This document shows positions 27,715 to 33,091 of a stretch of 35,854 nucleotides of DNA, one piece after another; the stretch's first letter is position 1, and each line of letters begins with the position of its first letter. This DNA comes from Bacteroidales bacterium (GTDB lineage Bacteria; Bacteroidota; Bacteroidia; Bacteroidales; DTU049). The stretch lies in contig JAFGWG010000101.1 of assembly GCA_016937255.1 (NCBI GenBank), positions 1-35,854 of the forward strand, read 5' to 3'. The notes beneath the pieces were generated by a model that did no database searches, was not told where the DNA came from, and saw only the letters and a program-made list of their open reading frames with translations. Position numbers and translations under genes: made by a program.

Positions 27715-28392
27715 ATGATCCCACCTATTCTACATGGCAAGTTCTATCATATTTAAAATCGCGGTAATAACAAAGAGAAAATATTTATCGACGATGCTGA
27801 TTATGCAAAATTTCTTGAACTATATGAAACTTTCATGCACAGTGTAGCTAATACAATTTCTTATTGCCTAATTGGTAATCACTTTCACATTTTACTGCAG
27901 ATTAAGAACTCAAATGAAATTGGATATCTAATCCCTGTATTTGCGAAATCTGATAACTTTAAATTAAAATGGAGCACAACCGAGATCTCTCATCGTCCGA
28001 CAACTAGTAATGAAGAGGAGGACATGAGTGCATCTCGGAAGCAACCAAACCCATCTGAACAATTCAAACATTTTTTTAGCACCTATACCAAGTACTTCAA
28101 TAAGAAGCATAATAGATCTGGATCAATTCTGGAAAAGAAATTTGAGAGAATACAGGTTGAAGATTATGAATATTTACAGGAACTTGTTTTATATATCAAT
28201 AACAATCCAGTTAAACATGGTATTACAAAAGATCCACAATCTTATAAATGGTCTTCGTTAAATGAAGTTATCAACTCAAATAAACCTCAAATCATTGATT
28301 ATAAATTCCTTCTTGAATTATTTGGTGACAAGGAAAACTTTTTATTTGAACTAAAAAGATATCAAGACCGTGATATCTCATCGTCTGAATAA
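27715..28392 (+). pseudogene. REP-associated tyrosine transposase (RAYT / Y1_Tnp-like), interrupted by TAA at 27754-27756
   Basis: Frame from the ATG at 27715: MIPPILHGKFYHI*NRGNNKEKIFIDDADYAKFLELYETFMHSVANTISYCLIGNHFHILLQIKN...PNPSEQFKHFFSTYTKYFNKKHNRSGSILEKKFERI...YINNNPVKHGI. HFH matches the HUH motif; YHI[YF]NRGNN is the family N-terminus. Confidence 0.82.
27980..28038 (+). repeat. Bulged hairpin A, inside the RAYT ORF
   Basis: CCGAGAT-CT-CTCAT-C-GTCC-[loop]-GGAC-ATGAG-TGC-ATCTCGG. Confidence 0.75.
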
Positions 28393-28419
28393 AATTCATA
28401 AAAGGAGGACATTAGTGTC

Positions 28420-28481
28420 AACCGGATGAACTCTTGTCCTGCCGCTTACTAAACCGAAGCAGGACGAAGAGTTATCCGGTT
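28420..28481 (-). repeat. Bulged hairpin C, between RAYT and cinA
   Basis: Minus strand: AACCGGAT-AA-CTCTT-C-GTCC-TGC-[16 nt]-GCA-GGAC-AAGAG-TTC-ATCCGGTT. Confidence 0.85.
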
Positions 28482-28494
28482 TAGAGTTTTTTAC

Positions 28495-28509: not shown

Positions 28510-29754
28510 ATGAAAGCAGCACTCATAACCATTGGCGAAGAATTACTCATTGGCCAAGTGATAGATACCAATAGCGCTTGGCTTGGACAGAAATTGAATG
28601 AGCTGGGGATAAAAGTCATGAAAAGAGTTTCAGTGCCCGACAGTCCCAACCTGATTGCAGAAGCATTTTCGCATTGCATGAAGCAAAACGATATCATTAT
28701 ATCTACCGGTGGTCTTGGGCCAACATCTGATGATAATACTAAAGAAACGCTCTGTAAACTATTTGATTCTAAGCTCATTGAAGACCGAGAAACTGTTGAG
28801 CATATCAAACGCTTTTTTCTTGATCGCGGATTGCCTCTGTCAGAAGTAAACCGCCGTCAAGGATGGGTTCCAGATAAGGCTACAATTCTTCCCAACGAAC
28901 TTGGCACTGCCCCCGGATTGTATTTTAGGAAAGATAAAACTCACATTTTTGCATTGCCCGGTGTGCCTTTCGAAATGAAGAACTTATTTGATAAGCAAAT
29001 CGCTCCAATAATAAAAACAAATAACTTAGAAGGCTTCGTTTTACATGAAACCATGACTGTTTCAGGCATAGGCGAATCATTTTTAAGTGATCAAATCAAG
29101 AATTGGGAGGAAAATCTACCCGAAAATATCTCATTGGCCTATCTCCCCTCACCAGGTTTGATACGTCTACGGCTAAGTATGTCGTCACCAAACGAAGAAG
29201 CAGGACGTGCTGAACTCAAAGAGCAATTCAGAGTTTTACGCCCACAAATAGAGGAGTATTATATGAGCGATCGCGATGAAAGAGCCCATGAAACGCTATT
29301 TAGAGTTCTTCTGGAATCGAAAAAAACTATTTCTTCAGCAGAATCATGTACCGGAGGGACGCTTGCTTCACTAATCACGTCTATTCCAGGCAGTTCTCAA
29401 GTTTTTAAAGGATCTGTGGTGGCCTACGAGAATAATGTGAAAGAAAACGTACTGAATGTTTCTACAGATCATCTCGAAAAATTAGGCGCTGTTAGCGAAG
29501 AAGTCGTTTCTGAAATGGCAACTAATGTGCGCCGCATAATGAAAACCGATTATGCTATTGCCACTAGTGGCATTGCAGGACCTGATGGCGGTACCGACGA
29601 AAAACCTGTTGGTTTCGTATGGATTGCCATTGCCTGGGAAGGCGGTGTTTTGGCAAAGTCGTTTCAATTTGGAAAATTGCGGGAAGTTAATATTGCCCGA
29701 AGTTGTGTGCATGGTATCCACATGTTAATCAAACATATACGAAAGGGAGGTTGA
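28510..29754 (+). CDS. cinA: CinA family protein (MoCF domain + C-terminal nicotinamide-nucleotide amidase domain)
   Basis: MKAALITIGEELLIGQVIDTNSAWLGQKLNELG; STGGLGPTSDDNTKETL; SSAESCTGGTLASLITSIPGSSQVFKGSVVAYEN; ATSGIAGPDGGTDEKPVGFVWIA. Confidence 0.96.
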   Translation: MKAALITIGEELLIGQVIDTNSAWLGQKLNELGIKVMKRVSVPDSPNLIAEAFSHCMKQNDIIISTGGLGPTSDDNTKETLCKLFDSKLIEDRETVEHIKRFFLDRGLPLSEVNRRQGWVPDKATILPNELGTAPGLYFRKDKTHIFALPGVPFEMKNLFDKQIAPIIKTNNLEGFVLHETMTVSGIGESFLSDQIKNWEENLPENISLAYLPSPGLIRLRLSMSSPNEEAGRAELKEQFRVLRPQIEEYYMSDRDERAHETLFRVLLESKKTISSAESCTGGTLASLITSIPGSSQVFKGSVVAYENNVKENVLNVSTDHLEKLGAVSEEVVSEMATNVRRIMKTDYAIATSGIAGPDGGTDEKPVGFVWIAIAWEGGVLAKSFQFGKLREVNIARSCVHGIHMLIKHIRKGG

Positions 29755-29795
29755 CATCTCAGCGTCCGACATAGGAGGACCTGAGTTCGTCAACC
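29749..29795 (+). repeat. Bulged hairpin D overlapping the cinA stop codon
   Basis: GGTTGAC-AT-CTCAG-C-GTCC-[GACATAGGA]-GGAC-CTGAG-TTC-GTCAACC; the cinA TGA lies inside the left arm. Confidence 0.8.
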
Positions 29796-30020
29796 GATAA
29801 GGAATGTATGGACAGTGTTAATTTTAAAATCTCAAATTCCCTTACCTAATTCCCACTCTGAAGGAGTCGAATAATAATGCTTTAGCGGTAAAGCAAGTAA
29901 AGTACGTTACAGGGTAAAATAATTCGTGCATTCGTGGTTATTTTATATTTTGTGGTAAAACAACAGACAATCAGATAAAAGATAATTACATCCCGAATTT
30001 CCTTATGCAAATAGTTTCCG

Positions 30021-30047: not shown

Positions 30048-31154
30048 ATGAAACTCGAGCGTCTGAAGCTATATAATTTTAAGAACTATGCCGAAGCCGA
30101 AATGAATTTCGAAGGCAGCATTCACTGTTTCTACGGCAAAAATGCCGGTGGAAAAACCAATATTTTAGACGCCATTCATTATCTGGGTTTTACCAAAAGC
30201 TATTTCACAGGTGGCGACCAGCCCACTATTCGTTTTGGCGAAGAAGCTTTTTCTATAAGCGGCCGCTTCACCATGCAATCTGGTGTAACAGAGAACATTA
30301 AAGTAAGCTTAAAATCTCCCGGACAAAAGAAAGTAAGCCGCAACGATAAAGATTATCAACGCTTTTCCGATCATATCGGGCAGTTCCCCATGGTTATGAT
30401 CAGTCCTTCAGACTCTGATCTCATCAATGATGGCAGTGAAATACGCAGGAAATACTTCGACACCGTTATTTCGCAATTCGATAGCACTTATCTGGAAAAT
30501 CTGATTCGCTATAATAAAGCACTTTCCCATCGAAATCGCTTATTAAAGATTATGAAAGAAAAGCGCATTCAAAATCGTGCTCAACTAGAAGTTTGGGACC
30601 AGCAGCTGATGGAATACGCCGATAGTATTTTCGAAAAACGCAAAGAATACAATACGCTATTTTCAAAGCACCATGCTGAAATGCATTCCCGCCTCACCGA
30701 CGAAAATGAAATTGCAACGGTTGAATACGACAGCTCACTCATGGAAAACGATATGAAATCGCTGCTCGACGAGTCATTTCAAGCCGATATTCAGGTGGGT
30801 TTCACCACAAAAGGCGTACATCGCGATGATTATTTCTTTTTCATCAACGAACAAAGAGCAAGGCGCTATGCCTCGCAGGGACAGCAAAAAAGCTATCTAC
30901 TGGCACTCAAAATGGCGCAATACATTATTACCAATGAAAAAACCGGACAAAAACCGATATTATTATTTGATGATATTTTCGACAAACTCGATCCCTTTCG
31001 CGTGCAAATGATGATTAAAATGCTTTGCCAGGAGCCATTCGGGCAAGTTTTCATTACCGACACCCACAAACTCCGCATCGAAGATATCATTGGTGCAGTG
31101 AGCCCCATACAATTGTTTAAAGTAGAAAACGGAACCGTAAAAGCCGACGAATAA
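30048..31154 (+). CDS. recF: DNA replication and repair protein RecF
   Basis: MKLERLKLYNFKNYAEAEMNF; GKNAGGKTNILDAIHYLGFTKSY (Walker A); ASQGQQKSYLLALKMAQ; PILLFDDIFDKLDPFRV (Walker B). Confidence 0.96.
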   Translation: MKLERLKLYNFKNYAEAEMNFEGSIHCFYGKNAGGKTNILDAIHYLGFTKSYFTGGDQPTIRFGEEAFSISGRFTMQSGVTENIKVSLKSPGQKKVSRNDKDYQRFSDHIGQFPMVMISPSDSDLINDGSEIRRKYFDTVISQFDSTYLENLIRYNKALSHRNRLLKIMKEKRIQNRAQLEVWDQQLMEYADSIFEKRKEYNTLFSKHHAEMHSRLTDENEIATVEYDSSLMENDMKSLLDESFQADIQVGFTTKGVHRDDYFFFINEQRARRYASQGQQKSYLLALKMAQYIITNEKTGQKPILLFDDIFDKLDPFRVQMMIKMLCQEPFGQVFITDTHKLRIEDIIGAVSPIQLFKVENGTVKADE

Positions 31155-31447
31155 TGGGACAATACGATAATCAATATACCATAAAAGAAATTCTCGATTC
31201 CATCGCGAAGAAATACCGCTTCACCAATCAGATGAATAAAGAAACGGTGCTTGCCAGCTGGCACGAAATTGCCGGTCCTATGGTAGCTAAATACACCAAA
31301 AAAATCGATATTGTTGATGGCCGCCTCATTCTCGAAATATCCGACCCCAGCGTAAAAAACGAACTCCAATATCTGCGCGAAAACCTTATTGATGCAGTGA
31401 ATAAGTATATGGGCAAAGTGGTGATTGAGGAGGTGGTGATAAAGTAA
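31154..31447 (+). CDS. DUF721 domain-containing protein
   Basis: Short ORF overlapping the recF stop; VLASWHEIAGPMVAKYTKKIDIVDGRLILEISDPSVKNELQYLRENLIDAVN typical of DUF721. Confidence 0.88.
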   Translation: MGQYDNQYTIKEILDSIAKKYRFTNQMNKETVLASWHEIAGPMVAKYTKKIDIVDGRLILEISDPSVKNELQYLRENLIDAVNKYMGKVVIEEVVIK

Positions 31448-31451
31448 CCAA

Positions 31452-31517
31452 AAACCTGTCAGTTCGAGCTGTCACCCTGAGCGGAGTCGAAGGGCGAGAA
31501 CTAAGACAGGGTTTTTT
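31452..31517 (+). terminator. Palindromic element containing CCCTGAGCGGAGTCGAAGGG, with terminal T-run; probable terminator
   Basis: AAAACCTGTC-AGTTC...GAACT-AA-GACAGGGTTTTTT around CCCTGAGCGGAGTCGAAGGG, just after the DUF721 stop. Confidence 0.65.
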
Positions 31518-31611
31518 CACAAATTCATCACATTTACTTCTACCATCCGGATATCTATCCGTTCCGCATTCCTACACCATTTGGCGGGATAAAAGATCAT
31601 CCGGAGCCAAT

Positions 31612-31685
31612 GCTTCAACTATTTCGTGACCATCTTCGCGTTTCTCAAAAATCCATTTGCTCGATGGACGACGAAATGATGAAGC
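31612..31685 (+). repeat. Bulged hairpin E
   Basis: GCTTCA-ACT-ATTTCGT-GA-CCATC-[loop]-GATGG-ACG-ACGAAAT-GA-TGAAGC. Confidence 0.65.
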
Positions 31686-31694
31686 TAAGCCATC

Positions 31695-31732
31695 ACTCCA
31701 TCGTGGAACGACAAAGGAGTTCCTCATGGAGT
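31695..31732 (-). repeat. Bulged hairpin F
   Basis: Minus strand: ACTCCAT-GA-GGAAC-[TCCTTTGTC]-GTTCC-ACG-ATGGAGT, extended by GCCA-ACG ... GA-TGGC. Confidence 0.7.
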
Positions 31733-31754
31733 CGTTGGCGGAGTGGAAGGAGAT

Positions 31755-31774
31755 ATACGGCATTGATTTTATAA
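31755..31774 (+). repeat. 20-bp direct repeat, copy 1 (ATACGGCATTGATTTTATAA)
   Basis: Identical to 32681-32700. Confidence 0.9.
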
Positions 31775-31811: not shown

Positions 31812-32627
31812 ATGAAAAGAAGGCAAATTTTATTGTTTTTATGTATCGCAATACTTGTTTCGTCAACAATTTATCTTGTATACCCATTATTCAAAAGTAA
31901 GTTTGACAGAGGCATAGATGATATTGAAAACAGAAATTACAGGTCTGCCGTTGAAACGTTCTCGGATATTATTCGGGAAGATCCGAAAGATGCACAAGCT
32001 CATAATAATTTAGGAGTTGCATATTTCTATTTAGGGCAATTTGAAAAGGCTATTACATCATACACTAATGCAATATCCCTAGACCCTGAATACGATGATG
32101 CATTCAATAATCGCGGTTTGGCTAAGGCAGAAATTGTCAACTACAATGGAGCAATTGAAGACTTCAATGAAGCTTTATCTCTGTCTCCTAATGATGCTAG
32201 CTATTATAATAACAGAGGATCTTCATATAAATTAATAGAGAACTATTCTATGGCAATTAATGATTTTCTCAAGGCTCACCAACTGGATCCCAAAATACCA
32301 AGAGTAGTTGGGAACCTTATATCAACATATAAGATGATGGGTAATTGTGAAGAAGTGATATATTGGAGTACATTTTATATTGAAAACTATCCGCCAAGAA
32401 AAAATGCATTTATTTATAGAGGACAATGTAAAGAAATAAATGGTGATTCAATTGGTGCTCATAAAGATTATACTGCTGCAGGAGATATCGATAGAAACAG
32501 AGATAAAGAAAACAAGAGCTTTTCATTTCCGAGTTTCCGGGAAATATGGCCATACCTATTTGGCTTTGTTACTTTGCTTGCATTAGCTGGGTTAATTACA
32601 ATAATTAAGCATTATAGAAACATATAG
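31812..32627 (+). CDS. TPR-repeat protein with N-terminal signal-anchor and C-terminal TM helix
   Basis: AHNNLGVAYFYLGQFEKAITSYTNAISLDPEYDDAFNNRGLAKAEIVNYNGAIEDFNEALSLSPND... tandem TPRs; C-terminal YLFGFVTLLALAGLITIIKHY. TAAATTTG promoter-like box at 31782. Confidence 0.88.
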   Translation: MKRRQILLFLCIAILVSSTIYLVYPLFKSKFDRGIDDIENRNYRSAVETFSDIIREDPKDAQAHNNLGVAYFYLGQFEKAITSYTNAISLDPEYDDAFNNRGLAKAEIVNYNGAIEDFNEALSLSPNDASYYNNRGSSYKLIENYSMAINDFLKAHQLDPKIPRVVGNLISTYKMMGNCEEVIYWSTFYIENYPPRKNAFIYRGQCKEINGDSIGAHKDYTAAGDIDRNRDKENKSFSFPSFREIWPYLFGFVTLLALAGLITIIKHYRNI

Positions 32628-32770: not shown

Positions 32771-32812
32771 AGAGCGAGAGTGAGTGAGAGCGAGAGTGAG
32801 AGCGAGAGTGAA
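32771..32812. repeat. Purine-rich hexamer microsatellite (GAGAGT/GAGAGC/GAGTGA)n
   Basis: agagcgagagtgagtgagagcgagagtgagagcgagagtgaa. Confidence 0.85.
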
Positions 32813-32814
32813 GA

Positions 32815-33040
32815 AAAGCCATCGCCCCGGCGGAGCCCGGTACCCCGCAGCAGCCGGGCAGATATTTGCCCTGCAGGCAAGAGCGACCGAAGGAAGCTAC
32901 TTGCTGCAGGTGGGGAGCTGAGAATTCTGCGGGAGGCGTAGTCATCGGATGACTCTGAGTCATCCGATGACTATAGTGCACAGGGATGGCGGCAAATACT
33001 GCCCGGATGCGAGGAGTTTAGGGCGGAGACGGATTAGGCG
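32815..33040. other. GC-rich non-coding element with extensive potential secondary structure (ncRNA or non-autonomous repeat candidate)
   Basis: GC-rich against AT-rich surroundings; GCCATC(32818)/GATGGC(32985), CCCGCAG(32844)/CTGCGGG(32927), GGGCA/TGCCC(32856-32871), CTGCAGGCAAG(32871)/CTTGCTGCAG(32900), and a 35-nt perfect palindrome. Confidence 0.55.
32939..32973. repeat. Perfect inverted repeat, 17-bp arms with 1-nt centre
   Basis: TAGTCATCGGATGACTC-T-GAGTCATCCGATGACTA. Confidence 0.95.
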
Positions 33041-33047
33041 CATAAAC

Positions 33048-33091
33048 AGCAAGAGCAAGAGCAAGAGCAAGAGGGTGAGCAAGAGGGTGAA
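33048..33091. repeat. Purine-rich hexamer microsatellite (AAGAGC)n + (AAGAGGGTGAGC)n
   Basis: agcaagagcaagagcaagagcaagagggtgagcaagagggtgaa. Confidence 0.88.

Follow-up and report, generated by a model that had tools for sequence, protein, structure and literature searches.

Two adjacent irregular hairpins, referred to here as E and F, lie between two genes of a Bacteroidales bacterium, in a stretch of 35,854 nucleotides of contig JAFGWG010000101.1 (the whole of this stretch is called the window). E and F are members of a dispersed, mobile-looking hairpin family in this Bacteroidota genome, and the family is very probably the target of a tamed transposase, i.e., a REP-associated tyrosine transposase (RAYT), REP being a repetitive extragenic palindrome. 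It is highly likely that E and F are REP-like units of a Bacteroidota clade of RAYTs (also called TnpA_REP), which are HUH transposases, with subclass 2.4 (RAYT group 4) as the closest known class. As features of REP/RAYT systems are present but the GT[AG]G foot typical of REPs is absent, the E/F family counts as a structurally novel version of REP/RAYT, not as a new kind of system. The two hairpins, with their scores in R1, a covariance model built from E/F-type copies and used for genome searches, are:

31612-31685, plus strand: hairpin E, REP-like, 73.3 bits with R1, with dispersed copies.
31689-31739, minus strand: hairpin F, REP-like, 66.1 bits with R1, with dispersed copies.

The order of the fold is common to both hairpins: an outer stem, an ACG×GA internal loop, a stem of 7 bp, a GA×ACG internal loop, a stem of 5 bp and an apical loop. 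In E, the outer stem is GCTTCA/TGAAGC, the first loop ACT×GA, the 7-bp stem ATTTCGT/ACGAAAT, the second loop GA×ACG and the 5-bp stem CCATC/GATGG; ACT is a one-base deviation, with ACG at that place in the other listed E/F copies. In F, the outer stem is GCCA/TGGC, followed by ACG×GA, ACTCCAT/ATGGAGT, GA×ACG, GGAAC/GTTCC and the apical loop TCCTTTGTC. Because the same loop flanks the central stem on both sides, in the same sense on each strand, the hairpin is nearly two-fold symmetric about that stem. A preliminary description, made from the letters of the window alone, had given two hairpins with such arms at 31612-31732: both are present within that extent, except that the outer stem carries F slightly further, to 31739. 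They are also the only places in the window, on both strands, at which the strict pattern AC[GT]-N7-GA-N5...N5'-AC[GT]-N7'-GA occurs fully paired (31618-31679, plus; 31693-31735, minus), and these two matches compare with none in 1000 resampled sequences that follow the dinucleotide composition of the window (mean 0.0, both strands).

The locus is intergenic, with dciA (31154-31447; Pfam DciA) on one side and the gene of a tetratricopeptide repeat (TPR) protein (31812-32627) on the other. When the region 31540-31760 is compared with its own genome by blastn, 38 matches are found, which fall into three units: E, F and a third hairpin, G (31544-31604). The assembly is fragmented (3.85 Mb in 254 contigs), and several of these matches sit at contig ends, as would be the case if the assembly had been interrupted at the repeats. 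Genome-wide counts and orientations, which rest on the R1 search and on this fragmented assembly, give 62 matches in the own genome. Among 40 genomes searched with R1, two relatives, both of the same family, have 48 matches (genome G004) and 2 matches (genome G006), and the remaining 37 relatives have none. An order-wide search of 295 genomes with stricter filters yields the own genome alone, so the family is sporadic. Most copies lie between genes: 41 of 44 R1 matches are outside stop-free frames of at least 130 codons, whereas 75% of background points are inside such frames. Close neighbours mostly face in opposite directions, in either order (9 of 10 neighbour pairs less than 40 nucleotides apart, counting the own-genome R1 matches and one extra match on contig C209), so that orientation alternates along longer arrays; the array of the window runs G(-), E(+), F(-).

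Once the copies are oriented, a common plan emerges (N4+ / ACG / N7 / GA / N5 ... N5' / ACG / N7' / GA / N4'), in which the N7 stem varies around AYTYCRT and there is almost no variation in the loop letters ACG and GA. In an alignment of 21 own-genome copies, 94% of the cells are paired and both sides have changed at 15 of 18 pairs. In a cross-genome alignment (copies from the own genome, from G004, from G006 and from L142, a locus of another bacterium described below, plus hairpins C and D of the window), 91% of the cells are paired and both sides have changed at 17 of 18 pairs; none of 500 shuffles gave pairing as high, and slid controls stayed below 48%. The ACG of the inner loop is invariant in this alignment, and its partner is GA, GT, AT or similar. 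The pairing of the hairpins is maintained by compensatory change. The proposal that loops are conserved while complementary stems vary freely is thereby borne out: the plan recurs across the genome far above chance and homologues keep their pairing, so that neither of the two outcomes that the preliminary description had named as fatal to it, chance frequency and unpaired homologous copies, was seen.

Strong folds placed between genes could also be explained by selection on RNA, i.e., the hairpins could act as dispersed stability elements of 3' untranslated regions, as terminators or as small regulatory RNAs, and RNA-level roles have been reported for REPs of E. coli (PMC3733652, PMC6006769). 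Such an explanation is very improbable here, although the hairpins may have a secondary role as RNA. No Rfam family was found at gathering score, and a permissive search returned one chance-level match to a C/D snoRNA; both orientations occur side by side; and the sporadic presence (3 of 40 genomes) together with the linkage to RAYT genes fits mobile DNA better.

That linkage is seen most clearly in the relatives. In G004, alternating arrays lie on both sides of a RAYT gene coding for 210 amino acids (L084:5260-5892), and R1 hairpins lie downstream of a second homologue (L098). In G006, R1 hairpins lie on both sides of the RAYT homologues L095/L069 and L099, and the same is found at L142, on a contig of Bacteroidetes bacterium GWF2_33_16. 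Thus, the family has the general characters of REPs and of their paired and mosaic forms (REPINs and bacterial interspersed mosaic elements, BIMEs): dispersed, mainly intergenic palindromes, opposite-facing pairs, and flanking of RAYT genes (L084, L098, L095, L099, L142). In the protein alignment (A2), the HUH motif is NH[FY]H, the Y variant being found in both G004 proteins, and the Y motif is mostly YINNNP or YIHNNP, with YINRNP and YINLNP in the two G006 proteins. At L099:2190-2410, behind the intact RAYT, the 5' end of the RAYT gene is repeated between two hairpins, with an internal deletion, and this second copy looks like a non-autonomous derivative.

The window has a RAYT gene of its own, which is broken and which is surrounded by sister types of E and F:

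27715-28392, plus strand: relative of RAYTs (TnpA_REP), interrupted in frame by a TAA at 27754-27756; the reading frame is open from 27835, and the motifs NHFH (HUH) and YINNNP (Y) are kept.
27978-28042, minus strand: hairpin A, in frame in the RAYT relative, between its motifs; known by its fold.
28418-28483, plus strand: hairpin C, REP-like, just downstream of the RAYT relict; 18.3 bits with R1 (filters off), with dispersed copies and a fold.
29746-29798, minus strand: hairpin D, REP-like, with inner loop GT×ACG; 18.8 bits with R1 (filters off), with copies and a fold.
31541-31606, minus strand: hairpin G, directly before E, with a fold and with dispersed own-genome copies of 31544-31604.

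With the G004 RAYT protein as query, the window gene is matched at 27718-28350. The resemblance of E and F to A, C and D, put forward earlier as a shared plan, holds for the inner loop: GT×ACG beside the 7-bp stem is found in all three, with one mismatch in A and in D. G, judged by eye, appears to belong with C in type. The F loop is indeed related to the D loop, as also noted before (GACAAAGGA and GACATAGGA, respectively), and GACGAAGGA occurs in the related copies L007 and L008 and, on the other strand, in a hairpin within the RAYT gene L097. Copies of the stretch of A are found on contigs C29 and C33, and in alignment A2 this hairpin shows as extra residues of the protein. D overlaps the end of the gene that follows the RAYT relative, and a related copy (C161:68268-68307) is contained in the RAYT gene on contig C161. 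Each of the three RAYTs that the own genome has from this clade, i.e., those of the window (hairpin A), C161 and C142, contains an in-frame hairpin, and the C161 and C142 hairpins, the former being the relative of D, occupy the same stretch of the gene as A; none was seen in the examined stretch of the L098 gene.

A tree of 45 RAYT proteins places four of the five proteins that have flanking R1-type hairpins in one group (93/89). The window gene falls into a neighbouring group (100/95) together with the C161 and C142 RAYTs, and A/C/D-like hairpins accompany the own-genome members of that group. Both groups belong to one clade of nine proteins (100/99), and L142 is in a further group beside this clade. 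Thus, the hairpin type broadly follows the transposase tree. Hairpins with a 7-bp stem, a 2×3 loop and a 4-bp stem are denser near Bacteroidota RAYTs in general (118 in 50 kb, compared with 130 in 143 kb). A universal ACG loop near Bacteroidota RAYTs was also considered and is not general, the strict form being found only in L142, L099 and the window.

The inverted terminal stems of the copies invite comparison with miniature inverted-repeat transposable elements (MITEs) or remnants with terminal inverted repeats (TIRs), moved by another transposase (of the DDE type, or acting on TIRYT ends) and found beside RAYT genes by chance, and RAYT-like genes flanked by TIRs (TIRtrons) have been described (PMC3733652). 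However, the repeated unit is each single hairpin and not a pair of distant ends, the internal loops are conserved and the stems covary, hairpins sit inside RAYT genes, and RAYTs flanked by such hairpins are found repeatedly, in two genomes and on another contig, all of which makes such an origin highly improbable. Integron attC sites, which are also imperfect hairpins with unpaired spacers and bases in arrays, are a still more distant match, to be given hardly any credence, since attC requires complementary RYYYAAC and GTTRRRY boxes, whereas here, compared by eye, a 5' arm YCAACGA faces a 3' arm TGATGR, so that the partner arm lacks GTT, and since the copies are dispersed and face in alternating directions. 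A kink-turn, considered from the loop letters, was ruled out, as no three-base bulge is followed by tandem G·A.

REP-like units served by a RAYT can be compared with the systems already known. Canonical TnpA_REP binds REP hairpins in single-stranded DNA, cuts at an adjoining CT dinucleotide and requires the GTAG foot, and the activity of the E. coli enzyme also requires a mismatch bulge in the REP stem (PMC8266576). The REPs and BIMEs of E. coli (TnpA_REP subclass 2.2) share with the E/F family irregular hairpins, alternating orientation, mosaic arrays and flanking of the RAYT gene, but they are 29-37 nucleotides long and have a single bulge as well as a GTAG foot, whereas the E/F family has 50-75 nucleotides, two 3×2 loops and no GTAG. 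The so-called CGTC-tagged REPs (PMC3733652) are likewise dispersed palindromes without GTAG, and CGTC is found, on the other strand, at the inner loop of many E/F-type copies; however, CGTC-tagged REPs have stems of 8-9 bp, loops of 4-5 nucleotides and no associated RAYT, and the CGTC of the E/F type is not at the hairpin end. Subclass 2.6 (RAYT group 5; mostly Bacteroidetes; PMC6006769) has atypical structures flanking its RAYTs, with genomic copies, in the same phylum, but the RAYTs here have mostly YI[NH]NNP and extra residues after the HUH motif. Subclass 2.4 (RAYT group 4; Cyanobacteria and Bacteroidetes; PMC6006769) has NH[F]H (HUH) and YIxNNP (Y) motifs separated by a stretch that varies, and long hairpins that flank the RAYT, sit in frame between these motifs and recur at other places in the genome; the presence of in-frame hairpins within the RAYT gene is a hallmark of this class (PMC6006769). 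It is from the motifs and the in-frame hairpins that the family here seems most like subclass 2.4. The E/F family differs from it in having neither a GT[AG]G foot nor a double foot and in having two symmetric ACG×GA (or GT/AT) internal loops, and the WQ motif is a misfit.

Several observations weigh against assigning E and F to a RAYT. There is no conserved GT[AG]G foot: the tetranucleotide lies within 8 nucleotides, in either direction, of the 5' end of the R1 match in 3 of 44 cases, and its complement at the 3' end in 1 of 44. The two proteins tested against the NCBIfam REP-associated tyrosine transposase (NF047646), their best family, score 47.1 and 42.7 bits, below the curated cut-off of 80 bits; the RAYTs are also below the Pfam Y1_Tnp cut-off, and the only match in the PDB, E. 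coli TnpA_REP (4er8), is weak (E 0.12). At the likely site of the published "WQ" motif there is F and not W, alignment A2 having LFE, FER, LEK or FQK. The own genome yielded no intact RAYT with flanking hairpins of the E/F type; the RAYT relative of the window is interrupted by a stop codon, and the hairpins that flank it are of the A/C type. A first Y1_Tnp search returned only IS200-like genes and RAYTs with short palindromes of their own, none with E/F.

As REP-like units, E and F would fold into hairpins as single-stranded DNA, e.g. at the replication fork, and each would present a central 7-bp stem bracketed by two copies of one 3×2 internal loop (ACG×GA). The cognate RAYT, whichever one serves E and F, would bind such irregular hairpins, cleave close to them and link them to other sites, and could thereby copy or move single units and pairs of units; adjacent units facing in opposite directions build alternating arrays like BIMEs or REPINs, such as G(-)E(+)F(-). 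In the absence of a GT[AG]G foot, the enzyme would recognise its target by the internal loops, perhaps together with the conserved apical loop. A bolder idea, for now rather unlikely, is that this RAYT lineage dispenses with GT[AG]G as a guide and recognises its substrate from the shape: with two identical ACG×GA loops symmetric about the 7-bp stem, one hairpin may offer two equivalent binding sites, and the choice of cleavage would follow a rule other than that of the known HUH transposases. In a published survey, the hairpins of Bacteroidetes RAYTs appear only as "atypical" or as long or double-foot REPs (PMC6006769); here, their plan is resolved by covariation and tied to a RAYT clade. The family offers a testable substrate for how TnpA_REP works without GTAG, and for how the shape of REPs and their transposases may evolve together.

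There are further repeats in the window and near other RAYTs. Just after dciA, at 31452-31517, a stem CCTGTC...GACAGG is followed by a run of T and contains a further repeat, CACCCTGAGCGGAGTCGAAGGG; the stem resembles the AAAACCTGACAGGTTTT repeats that flank another RAYT of the own genome (L110). At 32939-32973, there is a perfect 17-bp palindrome (TAGTCATCGGATGACTC/GAGTCATCCGATGACTA) with arms 1 nucleotide apart, which is probably another short REP family; a similar stretch, GTCATCCGATGAC, is found near a RAYT fragment in L012. A RAYT gene at L014:1050-2010 has several flanking copies of CTGTCAGACGACCTTTGAGGCGTCTGACA, i.e., a distinct family of short REPs together with the transposase belonging to it, and short palindromes (CGTCGTAGATTGTATCTACGACG / CGGCGTAGATTGTATCTACGCCG; L013:1338-1365 and L012:1090-1115) adjoin two other RAYT genes. 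Short tandem runs of GAGAGTGAGAGCGAGAG / AGAGCAAGAGCAAGAG occur in the window at 32780-32812 and 33049-33091.
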